NCBI RefSeq assembly: GCF_023101665.1
Contig: NZ_CP082163.1
Span: forward strand, 62,001 to 126,000
Length of the DNA: 64,000 nucleotides
Direction: 5' to 3'
DNA from: Bradyrhizobium sp. 195
GTDB lineage: Bacteria; Pseudomonadota; Alphaproteobacteria; Rhizobiales; Xanthobacteraceae
A model generated the notes under the pieces. It saw nothing but the letters and a program-made list of their open reading frames with translations. It was not told where the DNA came from and made no database searches. The translations under genes were made by a program, and so were the position numbers. Positions 18,467 through 39,681 of the stretch are shown piece by piece. Position 1 is the stretch's first letter. Every line of letters begins with the position of its first letter.

Positions 18467-18637
18467 ATGGATAAGAAGCACTTTTATCGCGTGGAGGTGG
18501 ACGAATTACCTGATGCGCGGCAGCCACAGTCGGCAGATCCAGATTTCTGGAACGATTGGACGCGGAGCGTCGATTGGGATGCAGTTTCGAAAGCATGGTC
18601 GGGTGCTGCTCCGGCACGACTGCCGGAGGAAGAATGA
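18467..18637 (+). CDS. Small acidic protein preceding sbcD, 56 aa
   Basis: ATG 18467 follows GGGGGGAC closely. The sequence (MDKKHFYRVEVDELPDARQP, then FWNDWTRSVDW) is acidic and tryptophan-rich with no known domain. The last codons overlap the sbcD start in ATGA, so the two are coupled. Possibly a helper of the SbcCD complex. Function unknown. Confidence 0.55.
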   Translation: MDKKHFYRVEVDELPDARQPQSADPDFWNDWTRSVDWDAVSKAWSGAAPARLPEEE

Positions 18638-19866: not shown

Positions 19867-19868
19867 CC

Positions 19869-22800: not shown

Positions 22801-23655
22801 GCCGCGCTGATCGCAACCGACCCATCATTCGGCAGAGCGTTGCGGCTCCGAATTCAGGAGATCGACCGAGGCGTGAACGATGCCGGCACCGCAGTGCTTA
22901 CGCGCCAGAACGACTTACACCGGGCGTTGGAAGGGTTCGACGCGCCCACTGATGCCGAGGCGTTGACCGCAGTCATCGCGGCGTTGGCAACTGAAATCGG
23001 AGACTTGCAACAACGGACCGGCGTACTTGCCGCGGCGCTCGCGCGAGACGACGAGGCCCGCCGCGCCGCCGCGAACCTATCTGCGGAAGTCGACACTGCG
23101 AAAGCGGAACTCGCAATCTGGCAGGCTGTCGACGATGCTGTCGGCTCGGCCAGCGGTGATCGTTTCCGTCGCTTTGTGCAGGGCATCACGCTCGACCACA
23201 TGGTGCAATTGGCGAATGATCACCTCCATGCATTGACCCCGCGCTATTGGCTCGCGCGGGGGGCCGCATCCGATCTCACGCTGCATATCATTGATCGCGA
23301 CATGGGCGACGAGGTCCGCGGCACCCGAAGCCTGTCAGGCGGTGAGCGGTTCTTGGTCTCCCTTGCGTTGGCGCTGGCTTTGTCAGGTCTCGAAGGCCGA
23401 TCGTCCTTTGTCGATACATTGTTTATCGATGAAGGCTTTGGATCGCTCGATGCGGAGACGCTCGACTTAGCAGTAGATGCGCTGGAGACCTTACAGGGCA
23501 GAGGTCAGAAGGTTGGCGTCATCACGCACGTCGCTGCCATGATCGAGCGAATCGTCGTGCAGGTTCGCGTAGAAAAGCGTGGCGCTGGGCGATCGGAGAT
23601 TAGAGTTTCTGATGGCATGAGTGCAACATGGCCTGCCACAAGTAGCGCGCAATAG
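19869..23655 (+). pseudogene. sbcC: SbcC ATPase (Rad50-like), frameshifted after the zinc hook
   Basis: The N-terminal ATPase half has Walker A GETGAGKST (residues 37-45), the Q-loop segment TVLLAQGEFDAFLLA, and a coiled coil up to the zinc hook CPVCGSTNHPH at about 21710. At 21780-21793 the frame changes: the first frame ends in LRRRRGRA, stop at 21803, while EELDTALAATGHRLDAA and the rest of the coiled coil continue one base further on. The second half carries TRSLSGGERFLVSLALALAL and TLFIDEGFGSLDAE, signature and Walker B, to 23655. One extra base in CGCCGCCGGCGGGG explains it. Combined length about 1,260 residues. A true mutation would leave SbcD without its motor. A sequencing indel is possible. 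Confidence 0.85.
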
Positions 23656-23702
23656 TATCAGGAGAAGCGGCCTCGGCGCGTTCAGATCGGAAGAGGGGAT
23701 AG

Positions 23703-24254
23703 ATGGAGAAGTATCATATCAAGCTGACCGAGAGCGAGGCCGCGATACTCGCGAAGATAGATCTTAAGGAATCTCATCGCAATCATGATGAGGGCCACGC
23801 AGCTTATAAAGCCAATGCGCAGCCGATCCTCGCCTTGCTCCAATCTCTGAGCGACAGGTCCGCGATTCCACAACAAAGGATGAATTACTGGAATGACCCC
23901 CGATACCACCAGGGGAGGATCAAAGCTTCGCGAAAAGGCCTATTCGAGAGAAATGGCTGCAGAGGCGCTGACATCTATACACATCCGCATTTTATTCGCC
24001 ATCTTCGCTATTTTCTCTTCGGCGCCGAGCTTCCTGACGAGATAATCCTCGCGTTTGAGGAGAAGGTCGGAAATCCGCAGTGGGTAACCTCCAGTGACAT
24101 CGTTCCGATCGGCAAGTTTGCCCGGGACCTTACCCGCCAATACCGTCTGGACAAGACGGATGCTCCGGAGGAGTTCTTCAAATTGTGCCTCGACATTGGA
24201 CTCAGTTTAACGACGGCCGTGAGCGTCATGCGGTCGGTCAAACAAATTCGATAG
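23703..24254 (+). CDS. Hypothetical protein downstream of sbcC, 183 aa
   Basis: ATG 23703 with an AGAGGGGAT leader just before it. A soluble mixed-charge protein. Visible segments include MEKYHIKLTESEAAILAKID, then YWNDPRYHQGRIKASRKGLFE and YTHPHFIRHLRYFLFGAELP. I know no domain for it. It lies 47 bases after sbcC in the same direction and could be part of that unit. Convergent with the helicase gene that ends at 24433. Function unknown. Confidence 0.6.
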   Translation: MEKYHIKLTESEAAILAKIDLKESHRNHDEGHAAYKANAQPILALLQSLSDRSAIPQQRMNYWNDPRYHQGRIKASRKGLFERNGCRGADIYTHPHFIRHLRYFLFGAELPDEIILAFEEKVGNPQWVTSSDIVPIGKFARDLTRQYRLDKTDAPEEFFKLCLDIGLSLTTAVSVMRSVKQIR

Positions 24255-24432: not shown

Positions 24433-27400
24433 TTAATTCGGCTCCAGTCGAATTTGTAGATCGGCGAGATCGTCAGCACGTGTGTCGGCTCCCATAAGGG
24501 TCTGGAGGTAGTCCAGCAGATCGTCCTGCCGGGGCTGGCCGAAGGCCAGACGATAGACAGTGAGACTGCGTTTCAGCCACGCGAGGCGCGTGACCTCGCG
24601 GCTGAAGGGCAGCATCGGCACATACCGTTCAACACGCACAGAGCCTTCATAGATCCAATAGGGAATGAGGTCGGTGTTAACGGCGGCTTCGGATCGCGCT
24701 TGCTCGAACATCCGCTTCCAAGGGTCATCCGGCGCATGGCCATTGCCTCGAACAGCGCTGGCTTGGCGCTCCGCGAGGTTGAGACGGACCGCGTGTCCCT
24801 TGAAGCGATGAACGCGCCCTTCGCGCTGCTCTAGGTCGACGGGGTTGCCCGGAAGATTCCAATGGTAGACGCGGTAGCAATAGGGGTGGAAGTCTAGTCC
24901 CTCCTGACCGACAGAGGTGGTGGCGAGAACGAAGGGCCGAAAGGGGGAATTGAAGGCATCCCTCACGCCGCCGAGACGCGCAACGGTGCCTTCCTCGTCC
25001 CGATAGTCGGCGAGCCGCATTGCGAAGCGGCCGCGCATCTGGAACTTTCTGATGGTGAGGCTGTCGCCTTCAATCCGGAGATCATCGACGTCGATCTGCG
25101 AGGGACGGATGGACAAGGCTGTGGCCATCGCGCGGGCGACTCCCGCCGCCCGGTCTTCCGGTGACCGAGCGCCCAGGCCTTCCGCATCGACAAGATAGTG
25201 AGCGTATTCATCCAGGACGGCCTGGAGGTTCTGGTCGACGCCATAGGTCAGAACGCGATGCCAGTAGCGATCTTCGGCGCCTCGCCGCAGCAGGGCGACG
25301 GCGTCGTGCTGATTGAACAGCGTGCGGAAGGCCCAAGCGACTTCGGCGGCGGCGCTTAGCAATCGTGGGTCGTCCCACGCAAGCTCCGGCGCGATCCGGC
25401 GCAGGGCGCGCAGCGCACACACCGCTGGACTGCCCAAGGCGACGTCCACGAGCAGATCCCGCAGATCATCGGCAAGAGCACCAAAGTCGCGCTTCTTCGC
25501 TGCGCTGCTCAATTCAAGGACGTGTTCGCGGAAACCCTCCTCACTGGCCAAAGCTGCCATGCCTCCCGGCGCCGAAAGCCAAGCGCTGGCACGCGAGCCT
25601 AGCAGATCGTCAATTACAGCGGGGATGGCCCATTCGGCGACCGGGGGCCCACTATCCTGGACGGCGGATTGCCTGAGTGCCTCAAGCGCCGGTTCGAGGC
25701 GATTGGCAACGGCCTCGCGCATCGCTTCCTGTGACAGCGGTCGGTCCCGTTTGGCGAAGACCGAGAGCGGATCGGCGATCTCGGCCAATTTGGGAGACGG
25801 ATAGATCAGCAGGAGCACCCTCAGTCCAGCCAATCGGCCCTGGTCTTGCCGAAACTGCAATGGCCGCAAGCGATGCTGCTCGAAATAGTGCCGGCCGGAG
25901 TCGCCGACACCCATGCGCCGTTCCGCCTCATAGGACAGGAGCGCAGCGATGGCGTCGGGCACCATGGACCAGGAGGAGAAGATAAGCGCCTTGGTTAGCG
26001 GCGGTTCCGATCTCTGGGCACCGTAGTAGGGCATGGCCGCGGGAATCCAGAGATTCTGTTCGAGGCCAGAGCCGAATATGTCGTCCATGATAGCGCGCAT
26101 GCGGCCGTTGGCCGGGTCGAGCGGGGCGTAAGCATCGAGCGCGTCGTGATCGAGCATCGCTGGGCGGGCAGCCAGGATCGCGTTGCGGAGCGCGACGGAG
26201 GGCGCATGCATCTTCTCCTCCAACAGGCGCTTCAGGCTGTAGTGCCGCATGAAGTTGAGAAGATAGGGCGCTGATTTCCAATACTCTATGATCTCCGGAG
26301 CATCGAGCGCGCGCGCCACATTCGAGACGGCTGCCGCCTGCGCGAGATCGGCCGGGGCCACCGAGACGGTGATGGACGGCTCGCCCATCATGGAGTCACG
26401 CTCGACTGTGCTGGCGACGCGCTCGGTGCGCGCAATCACCCGGCGCAACCGTTGCTCGATTGTTTTGCGCGCCTCGACCGCAGCGGCATGTGACGCGGGT
26501 AGGCCGTGGAGGAAGCCCCGGAAGGCGCGCATCTCGCGCGCCAGCATCCCAGCTACCTCCGGCCCCTTCTCACGGCCGTAGAGGAAACTCAGCGTCTCCA
26601 GAAAGTCCTGATAGTGATCACCTTCGTCCGGCTCGTCGCCAGCAAGGGTCAGCATGCGATAGGGAGTGGCCGACAGGAGCAGGGTTCGCGCGGCGTGACC
26701 GTCGCTGCCGGAATAGTCGAACAGCTCGCGTGCCAGGATCGCGGCGTCGCTGTCGCCGTGTAGAAGATCGCGGAAGCGCTGAAACTCGTCCATGATGATC
26801 AGATCGGGCTGAAGCGCATCCACGCAGGCGTGGGACAGCTTCGCGCGCAGCCTCGCTACGAGGCTATTGCGCGGTTGGGTCATTTCCGTCGGATACTCGT
26901 CCCGGCGGCGCGGGAACATCTCGCAAACGCGCTCCAATTCCTGGAAGAGATCGGAATCGGCCTGCACATCGCGGCGGAAGCGTTCGATGATTCGCGTGTC
27001 GACGCCCTGAAGAGTCAGGCTGTCGACAGCTCGGTTCCAACCGTCAATGCCGGCGGTGACCTGCAACAGATTATGAAGGCCGCGCGGACGGGAGACGAGA
27101 TCGTTCAGCACGTGCAGCAACAGGGCGCGCTCTTGCGTGACGCCGGTCGCCGATCGGAGATCGAATGTGGTGCCGGGAGTAAGGCTGATGAAGTTGACTT
27201 TGTTGGCGTCTAGCCCCGCTTGGTCCCGTAGTTGTAGCGGTATCAGGGTCATTCGGGTCGGCAGGGCCAATTCGCGGCGCCCGAGGACGTTCAGTCGGTT
27301 CAGGTTTTGCGCGGCAATCGCCTGGTTCGAGCAAATGTACAGGATATCGATCCGCCCGACGCTGTCCCAAAGATGCTCGATCATCCGCGCGATGACACCA

Positions 27401-27564
27401 CGGGCGACCATGGTCTTGCCGAGCCCCACCTCGTTGGCCACCAGGAACTGGCGGACAGGATCATCCGACCCGTAGAGCCGGTCGAAAACATAGTCGACGG
27501 TACGGCGCTGGAAGGCTTTCAGTGGGGCCAGTGCCGAAGTTGCGCGAAACCGTTCACTCGGCAT
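24433..27564 (-). CDS. SF2 (SNF2-like) helicase of the five-gene operon
   Basis: 1,043 residues from ATG 27564, overlapping the preceding gene by 11 bases with a GGGGAG leader. The motifs are VANEVGLGKTMVARGVI (Walker A), DLIIMDEFQRFRDLL (Walker B), TLLLSATPYRML (motif III), then in the C-terminal lobe LATTSVGQEGLDFHPYC and WNLPGNPVDLEQREGRVHRF (motifs V and VI). The length exceeds a minimal SNF2 motor, with a large middle insertion of unknown role. Last gene of the operon. Similar helicases act as DNA translocases in restriction-like anti-phage systems, which I infer here. Confidence 0.85.
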   Translation of the reverse strand: MPSERFRATSALAPLKAFQRRTVDYVFDRLYGSDDPVRQFLVANEVGLGKTMVARGVIARMIEHLWDSVGRIDILYICSNQAIAAQNLNRLNVLGRRELALPTRMTLIPLQLRDQAGLDANKVNFISLTPGTTFDLRSATGVTQERALLLHVLNDLVSRPRGLHNLLQVTAGIDGWNRAVDSLTLQGVDTRIIERFRRDVQADSDLFQELERVCEMFPRRRDEYPTEMTQPRNSLVARLRAKLSHACVDALQPDLIIMDEFQRFRDLLHGDSDAAILARELFDYSGSDGHAARTLLLSATPYRMLTLAGDEPDEGDHYQDFLETLSFLYGREKGPEVAGMLAREMRAFRGFLHGLPASHAAAVEARKTIEQRLRRVIARTERVASTVERDSMMGEPSITVSVAPADLAQAAAVSNVARALDAPEIIEYWKSAPYLLNFMRHYSLKRLLEEKMHAPSVALRNAILAARPAMLDHDALDAYAPLDPANGRMRAIMDDIFGSGLEQNLWIPAAMPYYGAQRSEPPLTKALIFSSWSMVPDAIAALLSYEAERRMGVGDSGRHYFEQHRLRPLQFRQDQGRLAGLRVLLLIYPSPKLAEIADPLSVFAKRDRPLSQEAMREAVANRLEPALEALRQSAVQDSGPPVAEWAIPAVIDDLLGSRASAWLSAPGGMAALASEEGFREHVLELSSAAKKRDFGALADDLRDLLVDVALGSPAVCALRALRRIAPELAWDDPRLLSAAAEVAWAFRTLFNQHDAVALLRRGAEDRYWHRVLTYGVDQNLQAVLDEYAHYLVDAEGLGARSPEDRAAGVARAMATALSIRPSQIDVDDLRIEGDSLTIRKFQMRGRFAMRLADYRDEEGTVARLGGVRDAFNSPFRPFVLATTSVGQEGLDFHPYCYRVYHWNLPGNPVDLEQREGRVHRFKGHAVRLNLAERQASAVRGNGHAPDDPWKRMFEQARSEAAVNTDLIPYWIYEGSVRVERYVPMLPFSREVTRLAWLKRSLTVYRLAFGQPRQDDLLDYLQTLMGADTRADDLADLQIRLEPN

Positions 27565-29407
27565 GCGCGCTCCCCTGAGCTTCGAGCGCAATCCGGAATG
27601 TGTCCCAGAGGGTCCGGAACTCGGCTGGAATGGGATCTGCTTCGCTAGGCTCGATAGTCTCCAATCGTGTGATCAACCGTTCGATGGCGCGGAGCTGATC
27701 GCCGCCCCGGCAGAAGGCCCGAACCATGTCCTCGAGGAGCGGTGCGTCGTCGGCCATGCGCCACGCGCCGTGACCGGAGCCCTCCTGCGCGGCTAGCGCG
27801 GCCGCAAACGGGTCGCCAAGTTCGGAGAGGAGCAGTCGCAAATACCTAAAGAAGGCATCCTTACTGTCGATCACCCAGCGCAGGATAGCGGCGTACCGTT
27901 CGGATGGCAGGCCCTCCAGAACGAGGCCGGTGCTGAACAGAATGGAGACTTCGCCATCCTTGTCGGTCAGATGGAAAGCGACGAAACGCGTAAGATCAAT
28001 CAGCGGCATCGCCCCGAGATCGACCGGTTGGCCCAGCAGCAGTGTTTCAAGGGCATCCTTGCCATGGCCTTCGCCGCGCGTGATGGGCCACGCGCGCAGG
28101 CCGCCAATGCCGAGGAGCGGGAGGGGCGCGGAAGGTATCAGCCAGACGCGCCAGAGCAGACAGCCGTCATCGGCCGATTGGGTGCGCTCGCAATGAAGTT
28201 TCAAGCTGCTCCGACAAATGTCGCGGCGAGCTGCATCTAGCCGCGCCTCGGCGGCACGCAGGGCTGTATCGACGGCGACCAGTTCATCAGGCACGAAGGG
28301 GCGTGTGAGCCGACCAAACCCCTTGTCCCCTAAAATCTCCTCAATGCTGCCGACTCGTGAACGTTTGCCGGTCAGAGTGGCGAAGACCTCCACATTGCTT
28401 CCTGACAGAAGAGCAGGGCGCGTGGCGTTCCCGGATCCGACCGTGATCGCCGTATCCCAGCCAAGCTCTGCGATGAAGGCCTTGGCGTGCAGGCCCTGGA
28501 GAGCCGTGGTGTCGGTTTCCTCGCCGTCTTCTGTCGCCGCCATCTCATCCAGAACGGCCACCCGGCCGAAACGGGCGAGTGTTGCACCAGGCACTAAAGC
28601 AAGTTCATCCGAGCGGCCAATGAGGACGGGCTTCTCTGCACCGGCGAGGTCCGCGAGCATCGACAGTGCTTTGTCGTCACAGAACGGCGAGATCACGCCG
28701 AGCCGGGCGCACGGTTCTGGACGCCATTGCTTGCCGCCGAGGCCATTCACAGCGAAGGCGACGCTCTGAAAGAGCTCGGGCAAGTCCCAATCGGTGTGGC
28801 GCACGTCCTCGGCAAGTTCTTCGGTGAGGTTGCGCGCGCCATTGGGCAGGCCGGCGGTCGCCAAATCCGGCAGGCGGCGAATGAGATCTGCCAAAGGACG
28901 ATTGAGCGCCAGCGGCCGTTTAGCGACCACGCCGTCGAGCGTCAAGGCGATGTCCCATGAGCGATCGCGGGTGAGATTGCGCGACAGCACAAGCAGGCGA
29001 ATGCGAGTCGATTCATCTGCGCGCAAAGGCTTGAAGCGGAGTGCCCATATCTTGGGATGGAAAGCGCCTCCGTTGGGGGCTGCAACCTCCACGATGATCC
29101 GTTCAAGCAGCGAGCACAGGCGAGAATGAGGCCGCGTGTGCGCCTGGATGTGTCCGGCATCAGTGAAGACAAGGAGACGGCCGGCAATGCGTTCAGCTCC
29201 TTCGAGCAGCGCCAAAGGATGAGTGAGAATATCGTCGCGATTCTCGGCGGCGAACAGCGCCAGGCTAACCGGCACGGCGAGCGCCGTCTCGAAGTCGAGC
29301 GAGAAGGTGGTAGCGACGGCGGTGTCGAAGACGTAGCCAGCCGGCGGCTGCAGGTTGGCGCCGTAGAGGGTGCGCTGTTCGGGATCGAGGCTGTGCCTAT
29401 TCAGCAT
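27554..29407 (-). CDS. Phospholipase D-fold protein (putative nuclease)
   Basis: 617 residues. Two PLD-type half sites are visible: FHPKIWALRF followed by LVLSRNLTRDRSWD, and LHAKAFIAELGWD followed by TVGSGNATRPALLSG, each with H-x-K and the downstream N/D residues. PLD-fold proteins with this arrangement are often DNA nucleases in defence islands. The 3' end overlaps the helicase start and the 5' end overlaps the DUF6361 stop by 11 bases, so it is firmly in the operon. Phospholipase activity is not implied. Confidence 0.8.
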   Translation of the reverse strand: MLNRHSLDPEQRTLYGANLQPPAGYVFDTAVATTFSLDFETALAVPVSLALFAAENRDDILTHPLALLEGAERIAGRLLVFTDAGHIQAHTRPHSRLCSLLERIIVEVAAPNGGAFHPKIWALRFKPLRADESTRIRLLVLSRNLTRDRSWDIALTLDGVVAKRPLALNRPLADLIRRLPDLATAGLPNGARNLTEELAEDVRHTDWDLPELFQSVAFAVNGLGGKQWRPEPCARLGVISPFCDDKALSMLADLAGAEKPVLIGRSDELALVPGATLARFGRVAVLDEMAATEDGEETDTTALQGLHAKAFIAELGWDTAITVGSGNATRPALLSGSNVEVFATLTGKRSRVGSIEEILGDKGFGRLTRPFVPDELVAVDTALRAAEARLDAARRDICRSSLKLHCERTQSADDGCLLWRVWLIPSAPLPLLGIGGLRAWPITRGEGHGKDALETLLLGQPVDLGAMPLIDLTRFVAFHLTDKDGEVSILFSTGLVLEGLPSERYAAILRWVIDSKDAFFRYLRLLLSELGDPFAAALAAQEGSGHGAWRMADDAPLLEDMVRAFCRGGDQLRAIERLITRLETIEPSEADPIPAEFRTLWDTFRIALEAQGSAHAE

Positions 29408-30575
29408 CGGCCAGATCCCGCAGATGCGATCTCGCTTGGCTCCAGCGAAAGTTGAGACGGTTGACGCCGGAGGCGCCAGTCCAGCGATCGCGCACAGCGT
29501 GATTGGCGTAGCGCGATTGGCTGGTCTTCAATCGACGTTCGCGCTCTTCCACGAGCTGCCGCGCTGCGGGCGCCGAAGCAATCTGGGTTGAGTTCTCCAC
29601 AACCAGTTCGAGCCACTGCATCACGAAGCGCTTGGCTGCAGGCCGGATGCTATGGCCGGGATGCTCGACGGCGTCCCAGAAATCGTCCAGCGACCAGTTG
29701 CGCACGAGGGAAAGATCCACCTCGGCGGTCCACGTCGCGATGCGTTCGCGATAATCCTCGGCCCAATCATCCCGACTACGCAGTTCGCTTAGCACCAGGT
29801 TGTAGAGGAGCGCCGCCCCATGCATCACATTCGAGAAAATCTCGCCGTGGTGGATCAGGCGGCGCGCGGGCGCCGGAAACGACGCAAGATGCGGGTGAGT
29901 CCAGATATGGTCGCAGTCTGCATTGATACCTTCGCGTGCCAGCAGGGTCAGCAGCGCCGCCGGTTGGGTAGCGACCAGGCGATCGATGATGAACTGCGCT
30001 TCGTCCGCCGCTAGGCGAAAGACGGCGCGGTCGAGCAGGTCCTTGGGTGCCTGCGGCAGGGATTGGTTCCATATAGCAGCCGCCCGCGGACCTGCAGCGG
30101 CGTCCTCGCTGTCTGACGATACGCGCAGCCTCTTCAGGCTGCGCAAAGAGACGAAAAGGCTATCGGCGGAGCCCGGAAAGAGGCGAATGCCCCAGGCGCC
30201 GAGGCCCGCCCAATAAACCGAGCTGGGGAGCCGCTGCAGCCGCGGACCGGCGTCGCGGCCGATGATGCCATTCGACTCTCCGCCAGCCTTGAGCGCGTCG
30301 GCGAGCCGAATTTCCAAAACGCGGGCCTCGGTGCGAAGCTGGCTTTCCGGAATGTCCCGGGCTTCCAGCGTGCGGAATAGCCAGGGAATGAAGAGCATGT
30401 ATCGCAAACGGGTCTGGATCGTGCTCGTCCCCGGAAAGAGATGATCCGCGATCGAATCACGAATGGCGCCCAAGCCCAGTTCGTCGCGGCCCTCGCGCTC
30501 CTGAAAGAGCGCCATGATCCGCTGCGCGCGCTGGCGCTCGGCTTCGTCAAAATCGATCCAGGCAAGAGATGACAT
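29397..30575 (-). CDS. DUF6361 family protein
   Basis: 392 residues from ATG 30575. It begins MSSLAWIDFDEAERQRAQRI and continues with LGLGAIRDSIADHLFPGTST, the typical start of DUF6361. No catalytic motif is evident. Genes of this family are found, in my memory, together with PLD-fold and helicase genes, as here. The start lies 14 bases after the UvrD-like stop and its own stop overlaps the PLD gene, so expression is coupled. Role within the system unknown. Confidence 0.78.
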   Translation of the reverse strand: MSSLAWIDFDEAERQRAQRIMALFQEREGRDELGLGAIRDSIADHLFPGTSTIQTRLRYMLFIPWLFRTLEARDIPESQLRTEARVLEIRLADALKAGGESNGIIGRDAGPRLQRLPSSVYWAGLGAWGIRLFPGSADSLFVSLRSLKRLRVSSDSEDAAAGPRAAAIWNQSLPQAPKDLLDRAVFRLAADEAQFIIDRLVATQPAALLTLLAREGINADCDHIWTHPHLASFPAPARRLIHHGEIFSNVMHGAALLYNLVLSELRSRDDWAEDYRERIATWTAEVDLSLVRNWSLDDFWDAVEHPGHSIRPAAKRFVMQWLELVVENSTQIASAPAARQLVEERERRLKTSQSRYANHAVRDRWTGASGVNRLNFRWSQARSHLRDLADAE

Positions 30576-30589
30576 GCGCGCGTCCGATC

Positions 30590-33500
30590 TCAGGATATCG
30601 GGACGGCCGGCTTCGTTCGCGCGACGGGGATGATCACCCCTGACGTCGCCAGCACGATCAGTCCGCGTTCGGCTTGGGTCGTATCCAGATAGGCGCGAAC
30701 CTGCGCTCGATAGTGTTCGAGCGTCTCGGGGGCGGGCGCGATGTCGCTCTTCCAATCGACAACCACTTGAGGCGCGCCATCGGCGCCAAAGGCAATCGCA
30801 TCAGCAATGCCAGCTGTCGCTTCTTCCTGTTCCTTGGTCAAGGTGGAGGCGTAGACCGGGAATTCCGGCAACAGGCCCGGTCTGAGGGCGACAATCTCAG
30901 GGAGAGCCAGAGCACGAAGGACGCAGGAAGCGAGTTCGGCGGGCACCAGCCCCTGCGCTGGATCGGGGGCCACAGGCCGGCCAATGGCTCGGGTCAGGGC
31001 TTCCGCGCGGGCGATGAGGGCGGCTTCCGCCTCCACCGTTTCGCCAGTGAGGACCTCTTCGATGAGCTTGTGCAGGATAATGCCGCGCTCGCGGCCCCCT
31101 TGGATCGTCGGGGTAACGCCGTCCTCGACAGGCGCGCCATCGACATTCGTCACCAGGATCGCCGGCAGCTCGGCGTGCAACGCCGGTCCGGTCACGCTTT
31201 CGTCGCGGCTCGGGGCGAGCCAGAGAATGCGCTGGCGGCGCTCGGCGATGATCGCCGCTTCCGCAGCGAAGCTTTCGCGGGTCTGCGCGTTCTCCGTGCC
31301 AGCTGCACCAAGCCCGATTTCGGGCGGCAGGTGACTAAGATCAAGCGCCGGTAGTTCCGCCAGCGACAGATCGAGAAGCGAAATCCAGGCCGATGCCTTG
31401 GCCGTGACGTCAAGTCGCGGCAGGACCAACAGCTCGCGCGCCCGTGTGGCGGCGACATACCAGAGACGGATGCGTTCGCGGTCGAGCTCGGCTTTCTCTG
31501 CGTCGCGTGCCGCCTCGTAACCCGTCGGCTTCACGCCGAACACCGGACAATAAAACCGGTCGCTACCACGGTCGGTGACAGCGCTCTCCGGCGCCATGAT
31601 CTGCGTCATCGTGTTGACCGGCACGACGATCGGCCATTCCAGACCCTTGGCGGCGTGCATGGTGTAGAGCGCAACCGCCTCTTCCTGGGCATCGGGACGG
31701 CCTTCAACGGCGCGAGCCTCGTCGGTCCACGCGGCGGTCATCGCTTCTGCGAAAGCGCGCAGGCCGCGGACAGCATATGCGCGACTGAGGCTCAGATAGA
31801 GATCGACATTGGCGAGCGCGCGCTCGGCCTGGTCGCGATGCCGCTGAAGGAGGATCGGCCGCACGCGCAGCACGTCTATTGCTTGCGACAACAGATCGTG
31901 CGGCGTGGTGGCGTTGATCTTCAGGCGCAGCGCGTGCAGCTTCTCGATGATGTCGCGCGCATGCAGATGGGTGACGGTTTCCAGAGCCACGCTGAGGTCC
32001 AGCAGCGGCAGGGCATCCGGCGCATCCTCGGAGCGCGGGAGCGCCCATACAATGTCCAGCAGTTCTTCCTCGGTCAGGCCGACCAATGGACCGCGCAGCA
32101 GCGCGCCGAGCGCGAGCGTGTCGCGGCGATCGGCGAGGACCCGCGTGAGGGCGATGAGGTCTTGAATCTCCTGGCGACGGAATAGTCCTTTGCCGGCCTG
32201 GGTCGCGACCGGAATGCCGCACCGCTCCAGCGCTTCCTCATAGCGCCATAGGTCGCTTCCCGTTGGCGCCAAGAGGGCGATGTCGCCGGGCCTGCAGGCG
32301 CGGCGCTCGCCGGTCTTGCGATCGAGTATAGCCTCGCTGCCGATAAGCCGCGCGCACATGTCGGCAACGGCTTCTGCCTCACCGTCGCGCTGGCGTTCGG
32401 CCGAGGCCTTGCCGTCAGCATCGGCCACGGCGATGTCGAGGGCCGCGATGCATAGCCCCTCGTTCCGTTCGGGGTGAAACGCATCCAGCGCGGTGAACCC
32501 CGGCTGGCCGTTTTCGGTCGACAGCAGAAGCGCAAAGCGATCGTTCACATAGCGCAGGATCGGTTCGCAGGATCGAAAATTGGTCGAGATCGGCAACACG
32601 CTGTCCGGCGCTTGCGCAAGGAACGCTTCTCGCGCTTGGATGTAGGCCGCGACGTCGGCGCCGCGAAAGCGATAGATCGCTTGCTTCGGGTCGCCGACGA
32701 GGAACAGTGCGCCGGGGCGGATTTGGAACGTGGTCCAGTCGTCGTTGTCCGTGTCTTCCTGGGGTTCGCCGCATAGGCGCCAGAAGATTTCGGTCTGCAA
32801 GGGATCCGTGTCTTGGAATTCGTCGACCAGGACGTGTGCGAAGCGAGCTGCCAGCGCGTGGCGCACGGCTTCGTGGTCGCGTAATAGCGCGCGTGCGGAG
32901 AAGATGAGATCGTCGAAATCGAGAAGGGCAGCCGAACGCTTGTATTCGCGGAAACGATCCATCACCGGCTGCACAAGGCGAACGAGCTCGGCGAGGGCGC
33001 GCGCAGCGGCCGCCTGCGACAGTGCGGTCCATGCTTCGCAACAGGCGCTGTAGTGGCCTTCTGCGGCAGCGTTCAAGCGATCGCCATCGGCTTTGGCGAG
33101 GCCCGCGCGCTTGGCCGCTTCGCCCCATTTGCCTTTCTTCTTGTAGGCTCGAAATCCTCCCGCAGCCGTACAGAGGTCGGGATGGGGACGTGCGAGCAAC
33201 AGCCGCACGAGATCGGCAGGCTGCGCCGCCGGCGAGATGGCCACAACGATCTCGGCCGTTTCGCAAAAGCGCGCGGCGATGTCGGCGGTCTCCATCTCGT
33301 CGACCCCGGAGGCGCGCACTAAAGACGCGAACTCGCCTGCCGCCTGGCGGAGGGCATGGATGAGCGGGACCAGCGCTTTCGGTGCATCGACGATCAGAGT
33401 GCGGCGATCGCGGAGATGGCTAAGAATCTTGTGAATCAGTCCGACGGTCTCGCTCGGGCCCTGCAAGACCAGTTCGGCGAGCAACCCGCCAGCATCCCCG

Positions 33501-33997
33501 GCGAGTTCCTCCCGAAGCCAGGTTTCAATGATCTCAGTGAACGCGAGGTCCGCTTGGTTTCGGTCCATCACTGCCGCGCCAGGATCGATATCTGCCTCAA
33601 CGGGATAGGGTTTGATGAGGCGCTGACAGAAGCCGTGGATGGTGGAGCAGGTGATTTCGTCAATGGCTGTGCTGGCGGCCCAAAGATGGCGTTGCTGGTC
33701 TTCGGACAGTCCATGAGGTAAGGCGACACGAAGCTCGGCGGGCATGCGCCCCGCCGCCAACTCGCCAACGAAATCGCGTACACGGATGAGAAGCTCACTG
33801 GCCGCGAGCTCGGTGAACGTTACCGCGGCGACCATCCTAGGTGCGATGCCCTCGGCTAGCATCAGAGCGATACGGCCGGCCATGACGGCGGTCTTGCCGG
33901 AACCCGCGCCGGCTTCGACCAGAAATGAGCGATCGTGGACCGCGATCGCTGTCCGCCGTGCCAGATCATCGGCGTGCGGTTTCAATGGCGCATTCAT
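30590..33997 (-). CDS. UvrD/AddA-like helicase-nuclease
   Basis: 1,135 residues. SF1 motifs: FLVEAGAGSGKTAVMAGRI (Walker A), HVLVDEFQDTDPLQTEIF (Walker B), FLVGDPKQAIYRFRGAD (motif III), YTMHAAKGLEWPIVVPV (motif V) and LWYVAATRARELL (motif VI). The C-terminal 250 residues hold a RecB-type nuclease site (PQVVVDWKSDIAP, D-x-K). The architecture is that of AddA. ATG 33997 overlaps the AddB-like stop in TGATG and has GGAGG seven bases upstream; GTG 34000 is the alternative. Together with the AddB-like protein it would form a DNA end-processing helicase-nuclease, here dedicated to this operon. Confidence 0.9.
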   Translation of the reverse strand: MNAPLKPHADDLARRTAIAVHDRSFLVEAGAGSGKTAVMAGRIALMLAEGIAPRMVAAVTFTELAASELLIRVRDFVGELAAGRMPAELRVALPHGLSEDQQRHLWAASTAIDEITCSTIHGFCQRLIKPYPVEADIDPGAAVMDRNQADLAFTEIIETWLREELAGDAGGLLAELVLQGPSETVGLIHKILSHLRDRRTLIVDAPKALVPLIHALRQAAGEFASLVRASGVDEMETADIAARFCETAEIVVAISPAAQPADLVRLLLARPHPDLCTAAGGFRAYKKKGKWGEAAKRAGLAKADGDRLNAAAEGHYSACCEAWTALSQAAAARALAELVRLVQPVMDRFREYKRSAALLDFDDLIFSARALLRDHEAVRHALAARFAHVLVDEFQDTDPLQTEIFWRLCGEPQEDTDNDDWTTFQIRPGALFLVGDPKQAIYRFRGADVAAYIQAREAFLAQAPDSVLPISTNFRSCEPILRYVNDRFALLLSTENGQPGFTALDAFHPERNEGLCIAALDIAVADADGKASAERQRDGEAEAVADMCARLIGSEAILDRKTGERRACRPGDIALLAPTGSDLWRYEEALERCGIPVATQAGKGLFRRQEIQDLIALTRVLADRRDTLALGALLRGPLVGLTEEELLDIVWALPRSEDAPDALPLLDLSVALETVTHLHARDIIEKLHALRLKINATTPHDLLSQAIDVLRVRPILLQRHRDQAERALANVDLYLSLSRAYAVRGLRAFAEAMTAAWTDEARAVEGRPDAQEEAVALYTMHAAKGLEWPIVVPVNTMTQIMAPESAVTDRGSDRFYCPVFGVKPTGYEAARDAEKAELDRERIRLWYVAATRARELLVLPRLDVTAKASAWISLLDLSLAELPALDLSHLPPEIGLGAAGTENAQTRESFAAEAAIIAERRQRILWLAPSRDESVTGPALHAELPAILVTNVDGAPVEDGVTPTIQGGRERGIILHKLIEEVLTGETVEAEAALIARAEALTRAIGRPVAPDPAQGLVPAELASCVLRALALPEIVALRPGLLPEFPVYASTLTKEQEEATAGIADAIAFGADGAPQVVVDWKSDIAPAPETLEHYRAQVRAYLDTTQAERGLIVLATSGVIIPVARTKPAVPIS

Positions 33998-36657
33998 CAC
34001 GGAGCCTCCCAGACCTGCGCGGCGGCTCCAAGACGCTCGGTAGCGGCGGCGATCTTGCGTTTGCAGTAAGCAGCGCCGGAATTGGCCGGCAGCGCGAAGG
34101 CGAGGTCGTCATATGTCCCGCCCGCGTCGGCCCCGAGCACAGCGCCACCGGCGAGGAGATTTGCGTGTGCGGCGCGCAGGTAGCCTACGACTTCGACCAG
34201 GGTGCCTTCGGGATCCTCGAGCCGCAGGTCGACCTCATCGCGGGGATAGAGGAGCGAAGCACTGACGGTGACATCGTCTCCGAGCATCGCCTTCACGGCG
34301 AACGCGTAGAGGCAGCGCTGCAACTCTTTGCCGCCGTCGAGGATGATGCTGTCTTTGGGCTTTCGACCGGTCTTATAGTCTCGCACCAGAGCGCAGCGGC
34401 CGTCGCCGGAGATATCGAGCCGATCGATGTAGCCAGCGATCCGGAAGCCGGTGCCGGGAATTTCAACACTGGCCGCTGGGTCCCAGGGCGGCGCTGCGTC
34501 GGTCTTGGGTTGGGCGCCGCCGAAGGGGACCTCGCCGAAAGCACGGGTGCCAGCGAGGTGCCCGTCGCCAAAAGCGAGCGCGCGCTGGCTCAGTTCACGT
34601 GCCTCGTCGAGGGTGCGCCGCCAGATCACTCGCGGCGGCACGGGGCGTTCTGTTTCCCAGAATTCGGCAACCTCGCCGACAGCGCCATCGACGGTGCTGG
34701 CGATCTGTTGCGCCGTCGCGACTGCCAGTCCGCCGTTGGCCTCAATCGCGCTTAGCGCTCGATCCAGTGTCATGTGAACAAGATCGCCCATAGCAAGCGT
34801 ATCGAGTACGAGCGGGTCGTCGCCGCTTTCGGACGCTCGCCAGCGCAAGCCATAGTGCCAGACGAAGCCGAGCGGATTGCGCAGGAGCTGGCGAAGAGAG
34901 CTTGCGGATTGCGTGCGTGCCAGGGTGGCTCGCACGACGGGATGGTCAGCACGAACGAGCCCGTCATGGGGTGTGATCTCCTCCCGCAACCAATTGCGCC
35001 AGCAGGTGGTTGCCGCAGCGGCTTGCGGCAGGGTGCGGAATTCTTGCGGCCGGGCCATCAGTCGGTCGGTCTCGCTAAAGGCATGATCCGGCACCCGGTT
35101 ACGTCGCAGATAGATCTCATCGGGATGACTCTGCAGCAAGGTGCTGCGACCGAGCAGACGACCATCGCTGTCCCGCCGCGCCCGTGACAGGACAACCTGT
35201 CGCTCGCTGGTGGCTAGGATGGTCGCGAAGTCCCGCCGGTCGGCCGCGCTGACCGGAAGCGGGTCGAGCTCCTCGGTGGGAATGATGTGATCGGAGAGGA
35301 GCCGATCCTCGGAAATGCCGCGCGGCCAACGCGAAGAATTGAGGCCGAGCAGGCGAACGAAGCGGCGCGGCGATGCCGCCAAGGCGCTCGCCGGCATCCA
35401 GGCGACCGAGGCGCAGGCATTGAGGCCGTCATCCTGTTTCAACGTCTCCAAGGTCAGATCGAGCGAGGCAGCCGGGCCGGCAAGGAGCGCCTTGCGCCAG
35501 ATGGCCAACGTCCTGCCATGCAACAGCGCTTCGCTAATCTCTTCAGCCTCGGATATGCCTTGCGACAGCAGAGACATGATCTTCCGCAGCGCCGGACCAT
35601 GATCGATTTCGTCGGGCCAATCGGCAGCCGTCAGACGGTCGAGCAGGTGGACCCACGCTTGGGGCGACGCCAGCGGAGCATCCGCTGGCAGGACGCGTGT
35701 CCAGCCCTCCGGTAGAGCTTGAAACGGGCCGGGATAGGCGGTCAGCAGAGACCCCAAGCGCCGCATACGGGTCTGAGAAAGGCCGCGCACGAGGATATCC
35801 GCCAAGGCGGCAGCCGCCTGACCCTCCCTGCAGGCCGTGATTTTGACGCCATGCACGAAGTGAAGGTCGAGATTGGCGTCGGCTCGCAAAGCCAGGAAAT
35901 GATCGTCGTAGTCGGCCGGCGTGACGGAGGCGATGGCGATCTCGGCGGGATTGGCTGTGCCGGACGCGATGAGCTGCCGCGCCCATCGAAGGGCTTCGAT
36001 GGCTTCGTGATAGGCGGTCGAGGCGCTGACGGTCACGATCTCTGGCGCGTGTGGTTCACTCCGCGCTACATCGATGGCACCGCTATCGAGCCAGGTGGGC
36101 GTCGACCGCGGTCCGGCGGTCCAGCGAACCGGCACCCGCGCAGCAATCGCATGCAGTAGAGGCCGCCAGCATGGCGACAGCTCCGTGATGCCGACTATCT
36201 CAATCGGCCCGAACAGGGGGCCAACATGATCTAGCCGTTGCAACGCTGTAGCCACTAGATCGGTGGGACGCATCATGGCTGGTGGCAGGGCGGCAAGGAC
36301 TGCGTCCTCGATGCTGGCGATCGAGGCAATGCGCGGGTGCTCGCCGGCCCGCGCCTGCAAATCGACGCCAGCGCGCCACGCCTTACGAAGGGTGTCGGTG
36401 GCGGCCCCGACCACGCCTGGCAGCAATTTCAGGCTATCAAGCTCGCCCAGCACGATGCTCGGCAGAATCGCCTGAACGGTGGAACGCAGGGTCTCGTCAT
36501 CGACCGGACGCGCCAGACCGCCCGCGAGGCGTGCGGCGACTTGTTCGAAGGTCATGATCTGGAGGCCGTGATGGCGCTCGCGTGCGGCGGCGAGGCGAAG
36601 CTCTCTCATCGCCAGCCGCCCGTGGGCGATAATGGTCCGCCTTCCTGATACTTCCAT
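33997..36657 (-). CDS. AddB-like PD-(D/E)xK nuclease
   Basis: 886 residues from ATG 36657; upstream in-frame codons look non-coding. No Walker A is seen, as in inactivated helicase-fold AddB relatives. The nuclease domain near the C-terminus has GYIDRLDISGDGRCALVRDYKTGRKP (D ... DYKTG, split here for reading), the RecB-family motif. I do not see the cysteine set of an iron-sulfur AddB. First gene of the five-gene operon, transcribed away from the WYL regulator with about 175 bases between the two starts. Confidence 0.82.
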   Translation of the reverse strand: MEVSGRRTIIAHGRLAMRELRLAAARERHHGLQIMTFEQVAARLAGGLARPVDDETLRSTVQAILPSIVLGELDSLKLLPGVVGAATDTLRKAWRAGVDLQARAGEHPRIASIASIEDAVLAALPPAMMRPTDLVATALQRLDHVGPLFGPIEIVGITELSPCWRPLLHAIAARVPVRWTAGPRSTPTWLDSGAIDVARSEPHAPEIVTVSASTAYHEAIEALRWARQLIASGTANPAEIAIASVTPADYDDHFLALRADANLDLHFVHGVKITACREGQAAAALADILVRGLSQTRMRRLGSLLTAYPGPFQALPEGWTRVLPADAPLASPQAWVHLLDRLTAADWPDEIDHGPALRKIMSLLSQGISEAEEISEALLHGRTLAIWRKALLAGPAASLDLTLETLKQDDGLNACASVAWMPASALAASPRRFVRLLGLNSSRWPRGISEDRLLSDHIIPTEELDPLPVSAADRRDFATILATSERQVVLSRARRDSDGRLLGRSTLLQSHPDEIYLRRNRVPDHAFSETDRLMARPQEFRTLPQAAAATTCWRNWLREEITPHDGLVRADHPVVRATLARTQSASSLRQLLRNPLGFVWHYGLRWRASESGDDPLVLDTLAMGDLVHMTLDRALSAIEANGGLAVATAQQIASTVDGAVGEVAEFWETERPVPPRVIWRRTLDEARELSQRALAFGDGHLAGTRAFGEVPFGGAQPKTDAAPPWDPAASVEIPGTGFRIAGYIDRLDISGDGRCALVRDYKTGRKPKDSIILDGGKELQRCLYAFAVKAMLGDDVTVSASLLYPRDEVDLRLEDPEGTLVEVVGYLRAAHANLLAGGAVLGADAGGTYDDLAFALPANSGAAYCKRKIAAATERLGAAAQVWEAP

Positions 36658-36831
36658 CGGTCCCGAGCCCCGTGCGCGCAAATCGCCAACTTTCTTAGAA
36701 GGAGCGCCTGTGCATCCTCCCTGGCGCCGCTTTACGCGCTTGACCCAAACGCCCCTCACGAATAGAAAATATATGGGTCGTAATGATATGTCCAGATAGT
36801 TTCTATCTGCATCGTCTTGGAGGCGAGCTTG
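36658..36831. promoter_or_regulatory. Divergent promoter region of the five-gene operon and WYL regulator
   Basis: The 174-base divergent region is locally AT-rich (36761-36775). It contains a perfect inverted repeat CAGATAG / CTATCTG with a three-base centre (36793-36809), 23 bases before the regulator start, and a related half-site AATAGAAA near 36761. WYL regulators of the BrxR type bind such palindromes in their own promoter, so this is the probable operator controlling both directions. Confidence 0.55.
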
Positions 36832-37701
36832 ATGGCGCAGGCCGGCGCGGGACTGAAGTGGGGGGTGGAGCGACGGCTCGAATTCATCGAATTCCGGCTG
36901 TTCTGGGAAGGCGGCGTCAATCGCGCCGACATCATCGACATGTTCGATGTGTCGGTGCCGCAGGCCTCGAAGGATCTAACCCTTTATCAGGAGCGCGCGC
37001 CCAGTAACGCAATCTATGACAAGAGCGCCAAGCGCTATGTCGCCAGCGAAAACTTCACGCCCTGTTTCCTCAAGCCCGATCCTGACCGGTATCTAAGTCA
37101 GCTTCGCTCGGTCGCCGACGGCATCGTTGACCGCGCCCATGCATGGATTGGTCACTTCCCATCGTTTGGAGTGACACCCAGTCCAGCGCGGGGGATTAGG
37201 GCAGAGGTGCTTCGGTCGGTGCTGTCTGCCATCCGCCAGTGCGAAGCCGTGGAGATACGCTATCAATCTCTGTCCACCTCCGAGCCGAGATGGCGCTGGA
37301 TCACGCCGCACGCGCTCGGCTTTGACGGATTTCGTTGGCACGCGCGGGCGTTCTGCGGTGCTGATCGGACATTCAAAGACTTTTTACTGTCTCGCATATT
37401 GGAGACTAGAGCGACGAAGCCCGGCGAAATCGAGGCTAGCGCCGACATTGATTGGCAAGATGAGGTCACGCTTGAAATTGGTCCGCATCCGGGCCTTTCC
37501 GACGCTCAGAAGAAGGTCATCGCGCTGGATTACGGCATGCGCGACGGAAAGGTGCGGGTGAAGGTACGCAAGGCCCTTCTTTACTACACACTCAAGCGAC
37601 TGGGATTGGATATCGATCCGAACTCACGCGCTCCACAAGATCAACAAATCGTCCTTCTGGGACCGCTGGCTACTCGCAGCGGGGCCATACTAGCGGGCTG
37701 A
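36832..37701 (+). CDS. WYL-domain transcriptional regulator (BrxR/CapW-like)
   Basis: 289 residues from ATG 36832, with GGAGG eight bases upstream. The N-terminal winged helix (VERRLEFIEFRLFWEGGVNR, then SVPQASKDLTLYQE) is followed by a WYL domain (CEAVEIRYQSLS, then RWITPHALGFDGFRWHARAFC) and a C-terminal WCX-type extension. Regulators of this layout sit divergently next to BREX, CBASS and other defence operons and repress them until a ligand, thought to signal infection or DNA damage, binds. Placement here argues that the neighbouring operon is a defence system. Confidence 0.85.
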   Translation: MAQAGAGLKWGVERRLEFIEFRLFWEGGVNRADIIDMFDVSVPQASKDLTLYQERAPSNAIYDKSAKRYVASENFTPCFLKPDPDRYLSQLRSVADGIVDRAHAWIGHFPSFGVTPSPARGIRAEVLRSVLSAIRQCEAVEIRYQSLSTSEPRWRWITPHALGFDGFRWHARAFCGADRTFKDFLLSRILETRATKPGEIEASADIDWQDEVTLEIGPHPGLSDAQKKVIALDYGMRDGKVRVKVRKALLYYTLKRLGLDIDPNSRAPQDQQIVLLGPLATRSGAILAG

Positions 37702-38803: not shown

Positions 38804-38887
38804 AATTTTGCTTAGTTGGACTGCGCAAAACGGCCAGATTTGAAACCTTGAATGTGGTTTGAAAAGATGCTAATTTACTTAGTATGG
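38804..38887 (+). promoter_or_regulatory. Direct repeats at the promoter of the second AbiE pair
   Basis: AATTTTGCTTAGTTGG (38804-38819) and AATTTACTTAGTATGG (38872-38887) match at most positions and are 68 bases apart. The second overlaps the AbiEi start codon. Candidate binding sites for autorepression by AbiEi. This is read by eye only. Confidence 0.4.
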
Positions 38888-39681
38888 CTGAGCAAAACGA
38901 GAGAAAGCTAAACAAGCTCGAACGAACCCTTCCGCAGGGACTTCTGGTTGATGCCGCCTGGATGGAACGGCAGGGATATTCCACGAGCTTGCGCAGCCAA
39001 TATGTATCGGCCGGCTGGCTTGTTCAGCCGGCGCGGGGAACCTTCAAGCGCCCGCTCGGCGAACTCTCCTGGCAGAGCGTCGTCGTCTCACTTCAGCGAC
39101 TGCTCGGCTCCGATCTCGTCGTCGGCGGACGTACCGCCATCGAAGCGCAAGGCCTCGGCCATTACCTGAGCCAGACGGGTCCTTCGACCGTGCATCTATA
39201 CGGAACGCGGCGTGCTCCCGGCTGGCTGGGCAAACTCCCGCTCAAACAGAAATTCTGCGTTCACCGCACGCAAAGTCTATTCACAACGCGCGGGAGTCTG
39301 CCCGAAACAAAGTCGGGTACGACGCGGAAAATACCGGCACCATTCGACTGGCCTCTCACGGTATCGACGCCCGAACGGGCGTTCCTCGAACTGCTCGACG
39401 AATTGCCCCGCCACGAAAGCTTCCATCAGGTCGATGCTCTGGCGGAAGGCTTGAGGAGCCTGAGTCCCCGGCGGCTGCAAACGCTTTTGAACGACTGCAA
39501 AAGCGTCAAGGTCAAGCGACTGTTCTTCTGGTTCGCGGAGCGGCATCAACACGCCTGGCTCAAACAGATCGACAAGTCGAAGGTCAATCTCGGCACGGGA
39601 AAGCGCATGCTCGTCAAGGGCGGCAAACTCGACACCAAATATCTCATAACCATCCCAGACGACCTCAATGCCCCTGTCTGA
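38884..39681 (+). CDS. abiEi: AbiEi-family antitoxin (pair 2)
   Basis: 265 residues. An N-terminal winged helix (LLVDAAWMERQGYSTSLRSQ, then SAGWLVQPARGTFKRP) is followed by the longer C-terminal AbiEi domain (DLVVGGRTAIEAQGLGHY, then STPERAFLELLDELP), so it belongs to a different AbiEi subgroup from pair 1. It ends in basic segments (KVNLGTGKRMLVKGGKLD). The stop overlaps the toxin start by 14 bases. With the toxin apparently inactivated, it may remain only as a repressor. Confidence 0.85.
   Translation: MAEQNERKLNKLERTLPQGLLVDAAWMERQGYSTSLRSQYVSAGWLVQPARGTFKRPLGELSWQSVVVSLQRLLGSDLVVGGRTAIEAQGLGHYLSQTGPSTVHLYGTRRAPGWLGKLPLKQKFCVHRTQSLFTTRGSLPETKSGTTRKIPAPFDWPLTVSTPERAFLELLDELPRHESFHQVDALAEGLRSLSPRRLQTLLNDCKSVKVKRLFFWFAERHQHAWLKQIDKSKVNLGTGKRMLVKGGKLDTKYLITIPDDLNAPV

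Follow-up and report, generated by a model that had tools for sequence, protein, structure and literature searches.

An AddAB-like helicase-nuclease pair upstream of Azaca in a Bradyrhizobium plasmid occurs beside many different defence systems

Organization of the locus

A plasmid of Bradyrhizobium sp. 195 carries two genes resembling the subunits of the repair enzyme AddAB in one compact cluster with an anti-phage system, which raises the question of whether this pair is part of that system, serves the host in DNA repair, or forms a defence component in its own right. Within the analyzed window (64,000 nucleotides of contig NZ_CP082163.1, in whose numbering all coordinates are given), the six genes concerned are open and closely packed. 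The AddB-like gene (33997..36657, minus strand) encodes 886 aa with a helicase-like N-terminus and a C-terminal PD-(D/E)XK nuclease whose active-site residues are intact (PDDEXK_1, 61.7 bits); its start at 36657 agrees with the nearest database homologues, which are also 886 aa long and span 96% of the ORF in its longer, 920-aa form, and 36609 is the alternative start preferred by the gene finder. It overlaps by one base, at 33997, with the AddA-like gene (30590..33997, minus strand; 1135 aa), which encodes an SF1 helicase with a C-terminal nuclease (UvrD N and C domains, the UvrD match reaching 177.6 bits; best PDB sequence match AddA 3u44_A, E 4e-36). After a gap of 14 bases follow three further minus-strand genes overlapping by 11 bases at each junction, namely zacA (29397..30575; 392 aa, DUF6361; PADLOC ZacA 438.7 bits), zacB (27554..29407; 617 aa; PADLOC ZacB 570.2 bits) and zacC (24433..27564; 1043 aa, an SF2-type helicase with DEAD and Helicase_C domains; PADLOC ZacC 1135.9 bits). 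A BrxR/CapW-type WYL-domain transcription regulator (from 36832 or 36817 to 37701, plus strand; Pfam WYL 44.3 bits) is divergent from the operon, and an inverted repeat with perfect 7-bp arms and a 3-bp spacer (36793..36809), a candidate operator, lies between it and the AddB-like gene. The five-gene operon, divergent regulator and palindrome described in an earlier sequence-only reading are therefore borne out by six open frames with overlaps of 1 to 11 bases or a 14-base gap; its remark about abundant broken genes in the neighbourhood holds for the one gene checked, an SbcC-like gene directly downstream that is split into two ORFs.

The same reading had suggested that the DUF6361, PLD and helicase genes might be Azaca, and PADLOC confirmed this: ZacA, ZacB and ZacC are adjacent, open and in the same order as in that system, with matches over nearly the full models (439, 570 and 1136 bits). 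ZacB had no Pfam hit, and the PLD fold was a label of the sequence-only reading, ZacB relatives being annotated as phospholipase D family; the predicted ZacA structure (mean pLDDT 74.6) had no PDB match at E 0.001. To our knowledge, Azaca as described has no AddAB-like genes, and no PADLOC Azaca model was among the matches listed for the pair. The new part of the locus is the AddAB-like pair upstream of an already known trio.

Relationship of the pair to housekeeping AddAB

A sequence profile of the AddB-like protein found no match in the PDB, and a subsequent fold search with its predicted structure (mean pLDDT 63.5, a partly confident model) gave AddB of AddAB as best match (Foldseek E 9e-13), with RecC weaker. 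The architecture of the AddAB superfamily is present, with an SF1 helicase and nuclease in the AddA-like protein and a nuclease plus a helicase-like fold, the latter as predicted by the model, in the AddB-like protein. The original claim that the pair is AddAB-like and shares an operon with the trio was right. The nuclease residues D, D, K and Q are kept in all 88 aligned AddB-like sequences, those of the AddA-like nuclease in all 84 rows covering them, and the helicase motifs of the latter wherever the alignment extends to them. Iron-sulphur cysteines are a feature of Bacillus AddB; the majority-Cys columns of the 88 sequences are scattered and contain no clustered set of four, a criterion which does not discriminate here because the host's own repair AddB has one Cys. 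RecD was not listed by Pfam or NCBIfam for any of the six proteins, so that the RecC and RecD subunits of a RecBCD enzyme are not both represented. The AddB-like protein had no hit in PADLOC 2.0.0, and the PADLOC matches of the AddA-like protein (best 25 of 46) were to UvrD-type helicase models, GajB among them. We rejected a Gabija-like system, since no GajA model appeared among the matches listed for the six proteins (for the AddA-like protein, again the best 25 of 46).

Could the pair simply be a recombination AddAB? It is not the only one of its host, as the sequence-only reading had left conceivable: repair AddA and AddB are encoded elsewhere in the genome and pass the TIGR02784 and TIGR02786 cut-offs with 1488.8 and 1321.8 bits, respectively, and a repair AddB above the TIGR02786 cut-off was present in 15 of 15 genomes tested, nine with and six without the extra pair. 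A second AddAB that mends breaks which leaky defence nucleases leave in host or plasmid DNA would be consistent with the membership of the pair in the AddAB superfamily and with the several partners (see below) that are nuclease or restriction systems. However, a complete AddAB is present in the host anyway, and the pair is distant from the repair models: the AddA-like protein scores 270.1 bits against an NCBIfam cut-off of 860.75, TIGR02786 is not listed for the AddB-like protein at E 0.001, and BLASTP between the latter and host AddB is not significant (best E 0.095). We consider such a repair role improbable.

Genomic neighbourhoods of the pair

The neighbourhood census comprised the best 80 of 211 genome relatives and 16 chosen loci, namely the window, 10 of 63 plasmid records (L010-L014 and L020-L024) and five genome regions (L015, L106, L113, L114 and L115), and was reduced to 92 loci before counting by removal of the duplicates L031, L062, L067 and L085; as loci were picked by similarity and not at random, its counts are not prevalences. 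The AddA-like gene follows the AddB-like gene in 90 of the 92 loci, and where both are called on the same strand less than 300 bp apart (83 loci), the gap is at most 20 bp in 81 and -1 or -4 in 72. L092 keeps AddB with an AddA reduced to its first ~80 residues.

Systems near the pair are of ten types, namely Azaca, Hma, BREX, ubiquitin-like, Shango, type III RM and SIR2-HerA systems, as well as CBASS-like, Zorya and Wadjet systems in one locus each. A named system was found in 51 of 69 two-flank loci with strict labels and 61 of 69 with looser ones, compared with 0 of 15 repair-AddB regions searched with identical reference proteins; these proteins came from the same loci, so that systems without a label escape notice and cross-hits may inflate the labels, and the comparison has no matched defence gene as background, defence genes being clustered anyway. 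One locus, L025, received three loose labels and no strict one.

The remaining two-flank loci (18 of 69 with strict labels, eight with loose ones) show no named partner, and the pair may therefore work by itself. They include L013, L014 and L015, the last being the host's own chromosomal second copy, which are the examined members of a clade about 40% identical. These loci, together with the highly variable identity of partners, are compatible with the pair being an independent defence system, degrading the ends of phage DNA, that simply shares WYL-controlled islands with its neighbours and has no functional link to them. What speaks against this is the downstream spacing, in which two unrelated partners abut the pair on the same strand with gaps of 4-23 bp. 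A ResIII/DEAD helicase as next gene lies 13-23 bp away in 21 of 21 cases, and at 16 of these 21 junctions the gap is the same 14 bp, with differing systems upstream of the pair; ZacA as next gene lies 4-22 bp away in 12 of 17 loci and 100-159 bp away in the other five. We regard a purely independent neighbour as a serious but rather unlikely alternative.

The sequence-only reading asked whether the pair always accompanies the trio and proposed that the five genes make an extended system. Neither idea survived the census, in which other systems lie near the pair in many of the loci without Azaca. The notion of a single, larger Azaca in which all five genes are fixed has some points in its favour: in 17 of the 81 loci where the following gene was called, that gene is ZacA, and ZacA and an AddB-like gene occur together in six of 385 genomes of a class sample, where chance expects 0.16 (hypergeometric 1.3e-10; the count leaves out G257 with a weak ZacA, E 1.8e-4, and its nine AddB-like genomes include G366 with a broken fragment and G004 at about 40% identity). 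However, Azaca is near the pair in only 24 of 92 loci (strict labels), the pair is missing from five of eight other Azaca regions examined (which do not include two further stretches positive for ZacA, in G025 and on the ZacA contig of G288), and the AddB tree requires at least 13 (loose labels) or 15 (strict labels) changes in the presence of Azaca. Azaca lineages also differ beside equally distant AddB proteins (ZacC 43% and AddB 66% for L010; ZacC 84% and AddB 67% for L020). We reject a fixed extended Azaca, which appears highly unlikely. Occurrence apart from the trio is half of one condition that the sequence-only reading had named as refuting its proposal; the other half, a host without any further AddAB, was not seen.

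Upstream partners change repeatedly as well, at least 18 times on the AddB tree among the 48 rows whose partner is named under strict labels, and 26 times over 76 rows when "none" is treated as a state, or 32 with looser labels. Flanks can differ between closely related pairs: L071 carries Hma and L095 BREX, and L104 is a BREX locus inside a clade of Shango loci. Such cases would also be expected if the pair provided homology or recombination activity for exchange of defence cassettes and had only a secondary role in defence, a reading that by itself leaves the divergent WYL gene and the tight partner spacing unexplained and to which we give very little credence. The pair is found on plasmids and chromosomes. 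A phage origin was rejected, since none of 50,697 phage records matched the pair and the 66 pattern matches in viral contigs did not encode any relative. CRISPR-like repeat arrays are reported for one AddB-like nuclease (PMC10910872), and were rejected as companions of the pair: a search for exact regularly spaced repeats in 116 sequences (115 loci and the window) gave one three-copy match, which lies within a VWA-domain gene of L011, well away from the pair.

WYL regulator and candidate operator

With at most one mismatch allowed, the palindrome CAGATAG-TTT-CTATCTG has a single occurrence in the window and is absent from all of 100 shuffles; identical arms lie between the WYL and AddB genes of two relatives (L033 and L050). 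A divergent WYL gene adjoins AddB in 49 of the 92 loci, and the regulator of the window falls in one sequence cluster with WYL regulators adjoining BREX and Hma genes of relatives. Judged from sequence features, namely a WYL domain, a divergent position upstream of defence genes and a palindromic candidate operator, it is probably a regulator of the BrxR/CapW kind. BrxR-family regulators accompany diverse defence systems, according to PMC9122601.

Proposed function and significance

The presence of the pair beside many different defence systems of related bacteria suggests a common, swappable part of bacterial immunity. We consider it somewhat probable, on sequence grounds, that the pair is a portable, WYL-controlled defence version of AddAB which destroys the DNA ends that its respective partner exposes. 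As a two-gene module, often with a divergent WYL gene, it would travel and become joined to different anti-phage systems, here Azaca. By analogy with BrxR and CapW, repression by the WYL protein would be lifted upon infection or DNA damage; the partner would then mark, cut or stall incoming DNA and thereby expose ends, on which the pair, judging from its intact motifs and homology, could load in order to unwind and degrade both strands with its two nucleases. It may act beside the housekeeping AddAB, or replace it when a phage blocks that enzyme. A bolder form of this proposal, which we put forward as doubtful, is a mobile hub: a WYL-induced AddAB-type machine that neither Chi nor the phage proteins inhibiting the host enzyme would stop, that makes ten or more otherwise unrelated defence systems cooperate or perform better, and that serves as fixed core for cassette exchange.

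Defence systems are usually listed as closed gene sets, whereas here the helicase-nuclease pair is constant and the named systems vary. If partners need the pair, this would explain how different systems complete DNA destruction, would provide a mobile counterpart to the RecBCD hub of Druantia and Zorya, and would supply defence-finding tools with a further module, the AddB-like protein having had no hit in PADLOC 2.0.0. Since natural loci combine the same pair with different partners, cooperation between systems is directly testable.

Comparison with known systems

A literature search found no account of an AddB-like/AddA-like pair as a cross-system module. The pair resembles AddAB of double-strand break repair in having two subunits, an SF1 helicase and two PD-(D/E)XK nucleases, but its AddB-like subunit is shorter (886 aa versus 1056 aa in the host copy), both proteins fall below the NCBIfam cut-offs, and the pair is additional to the host AddAB and near defence genes, unlike the 15 repair-AddB regions. 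With Gabija (GajA-GajB) it shares a UvrD-like helicase in defence, the AddA-like protein matching GajB models, whereas the partner subunit here is AddB-like and no GajA was among the listed matches. BrxR and CapW, as presented in PMC9122601 and PMC9122588, likewise combine a WYL repressor, a palindromic operator (a candidate here) and adjacent defence systems; what differs is that an AddAB-like pair often neighbours the regulator in our locus set, and term searches of the main texts gave no UvrD or AddA (both papers) and no RecB (PMC9122601). BREX and BREX-related systems have auxiliary nuclease effectors (PMC12839542) that are similar in being extra PD-(D/E)XK nucleases recruited beside BREX and DUF499-centred systems; its main text leaves RecB, UvrD, AddA and AddB unmentioned, and a cross-system helicase-nuclease pair was not found in the part consulted. 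Among our loci, HmaC of L037 also matches the PADLOC DUF499 model. A parallel in concept comes from a preprint (PMC13192584) which presents RecBCD as a hub of DNA processing that Druantia III and Zorya II have in common. In both cases a helicase-nuclease would connect different defence systems; there it is the core RecBCD of the host, whereas here we propose a mobile, dedicated copy encoded beside its partner.

Operon structure and active sites of the AddAB-like pair

The trio that the sequence-only reading had tentatively called Azaca gave near full-length PADLOC matches to ZacA, ZacB, and ZacC, which confirms that assignment. The operon (AddB-like, AddA-like, ZacA, ZacB, and ZacC, in this order) runs from 36657 to 24433 on the minus strand and is divergent from a WYL gene (36832-37701). 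A 17-bp palindrome (36793-36809) is unique in the window and did not arise in any of 100 shuffles, and its arms recur between WYL and AddB in two other loci (L033 and L050). CapW is reported to bind palindromes and to repress until infection (PMC9122588), and BrxR is described as an inverted-repeat-binding repressor (PMC9122601). The contig holding the window is 221 kb long (genome of 9.1 Mb in three contigs), window positions 1-8.5 kb match repABC and mobilization genes of Bradyrhizobium plasmids, and the best relative of the AddB-like protein (98% identity) carries the name of a Bradyrhizobium lupini plasmid.

The AddA-like protein has UvrD N- and C-terminal domains, with AddA as its nearest PDB relative. 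The AddB-like protein contains a PD-(D/E)XK nuclease domain; its sequence profile found no relative in the PDB, and its predicted model, which is only partly confident (mean pLDDT 63.5), best matched AddB of AddAB in Foldseek (E 9e-13), followed by AdnA and, more weakly, RecC. The nuclease residues D, D, K, and Q do not vary among 88 aligned AddB-like proteins, and the Walker A lysine, the DEFQDTD motif, and the nuclease D, D, and K are constant in all covering rows of 84 AddA-like proteins (Walker A is gapped in one row and the nuclease in 5-6). Because these motif residues are kept, the helicase and both nucleases look active.

Further genes lie around the operon. Convergent to it (18634-24254, plus strand) are an SbcD-like gene, an SbcC-like gene now split between ORFs at 19869-21803 and 21901-23655, and an ORF of 183 aa. 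The same set, unsplit, lies across WYL from the pair in L032, as do its SbcD- and SbcC-like genes in L038, which links a second group of DNA-end-processing genes to the AddAB-like module. An AbiEi/AbiEii pair is found on the WYL side (38884-40585, plus strand) with one more AbiEii-like ORF on the opposite side (17244-18389, plus strand); AbiE genes also occur near the pair in L011, L013, L032, and L098.

Distinction from repair AddAB

That the pair might be the host's only AddAB is contradicted by a separate repair AddAB elsewhere on the host chromosome, which scores 1321.8 and 1488.8 bits and so passes the family cut-offs; scored against the same models, the window pair falls below them. Repair AddB was above the cut-off in all 15 genomes tested (nine with an extra pair and six without). 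The host chromosome also carries a third pair (L015, about C1:7620584-7626672; AddB 38% identical), neighbored by divergent SIR2-domain and SMC-type genes.

Partner systems and their exchange

We compared 96 loci (the best 80 of 211 AddB-like relatives from a genome scan, the window, 10 plasmid records, and five genome regions), leaving 92 after removal of four duplicates. AddA follows AddB in 90 of them, the exceptions being a contig end (L066) and a locus where only the AddA start remains (L092), and WYL is adjacent and divergent in 49. Under loose labels, with one or more allowed per locus, the upstream systems were Hma (21), BREX (12), ubiquitin-like (11), Shango (6), type III RM (6), AbiE (3), IetA-like (3), other RM (2), SbcCD-like (2), CBASS (1), SIR2-HerA (1), and Zorya (1). 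Downstream were Azaca (30 in the same orientation, of which some reach just 25-30% identity or are fragments, and six convergent), a 1112-aa ResIII/DEAD helicase (22), SIR2-HerA (2), Wadjet (1), and a few others. Strict labels, requiring two genes of a system or a 200-bit match spanning 30% or more of a core gene, gave across the 92 loci Azaca 24, Hma 18, BREX 11, ubiquitin-like 10, Shango 8, type III RM 5, SIR2-HerA 3, and CBASS, Zorya, and Wadjet one each. Representative genes were named by PADLOC or Pfam (HmaA/B/C, type III MTase and REase, SngA/B/C, CD-NTase, SIR2, HerA, ZorA, ZorD, JetC, multiubiquitin, and DUF6527), and BREX genes by the record's annotation. The same references found only AddA similarity in 15 repair-AddB regions of 15-20 kb each.

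In 69 loci the sequence spans 4 kb or more upstream of AddB and 8 kb or more downstream; a named system lies near the pair in 51 of these by strict labels and in 61 by any label. Some loci are partner-free, so the pair may instead work by itself.

On a quick-method tree of the 88 AddB-like sequences, at least 32 changes of the loose upstream label are needed over 76 rows (the label has 12 states including "none", hence a minimum of 11); shuffled labels averaged 49.3 changes, and none of 200 shuffles was as low as 32. Strict upstream labels required at least 26 changes over 76 rows (18 over the 48 rows with a named partner), the loose downstream label at least 23 over 72 rows, and Azaca presence at least 13 (loose) or 15 (strict). 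Partners are therefore inherited for a time and later replaced. Close pairs can stand beside different partners (e.g., L071/L095 and L070/L074), Azaca lineages next to pairs of similar distance differ strongly (ZacC 43% in L010 vs 84% in L020, with AddB at 66-67% in both), and for two unrelated partners the next gene follows the pair closely.

Several arrangements were observed in individual loci. The 1112-aa helicase (L011:21062-24400 and 20 other loci) starts 13-23 bp after AddA, has only weak family matches, and accompanies varying upstream systems; it is possibly a third core gene. In L010, L022, L069, and L093, multiubiquitin, ThiF-type, and DUF6527 genes (Pfam domains checked on L010 only), the pair, and a divergent Azaca lineage (ZacC 43%) follow in one direction. 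In a CBASS-like locus of a Desulfosarcina plasmid (L012), CD-NTase, ThiF, and JAB genes directly precede the pair and a metallophosphoesterase; as no effector is named in the annotation, the pair may take that role.

Azaca with and without the pair

Among 385 genomes from the class, seven had ZacA (excluding one additional weak match), nine had AddB-like, and six had both (hypergeometric 1.3e-10); across 398 genomes of the phylum, the counts were five, three, and two. Whether the pair always accompanies the trio, as the sequence-only reading had asked, was checked in eight further Azaca regions (L105-L112), and the association holds only in part. The pair is directly upstream in two (L106, and L105, whose record seems to be that of L020), convergent in one (G547, L110/L116), and was not found within the stretch in five (L107, L108, L109, L111, and L112). 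All Azaca matches in L110 and L111 are distant, and the L112 contig gives just 5 kb upstream; L111 and L112 come from genomes with AddB-like genes on other contigs.

Proposed role and comparison with known systems

Infection would induce the operon, the partner system would expose DNA ends, and the pair would unwind and degrade DNA from these ends. A dedicated mobile DNA-processing hub is plausible because RecBCD has been reported as a hub common to Druantia III and Zorya II (preprint PMC13192584). It is a matter of speculation that the pair is blind to Chi and resistant to inhibitors. Among the matches listed in our literature search (titles and abstract openings), we recognised no account of an AddAB-like pair common to defence systems. 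Of the closest papers, a BREX survey (PMC12839542) does not contain the terms RecB, UvrD, AddA, or AddB in its main text, and another (PMC10910872) refers to a single AddB-like nuclease accompanied by repeat arrays.
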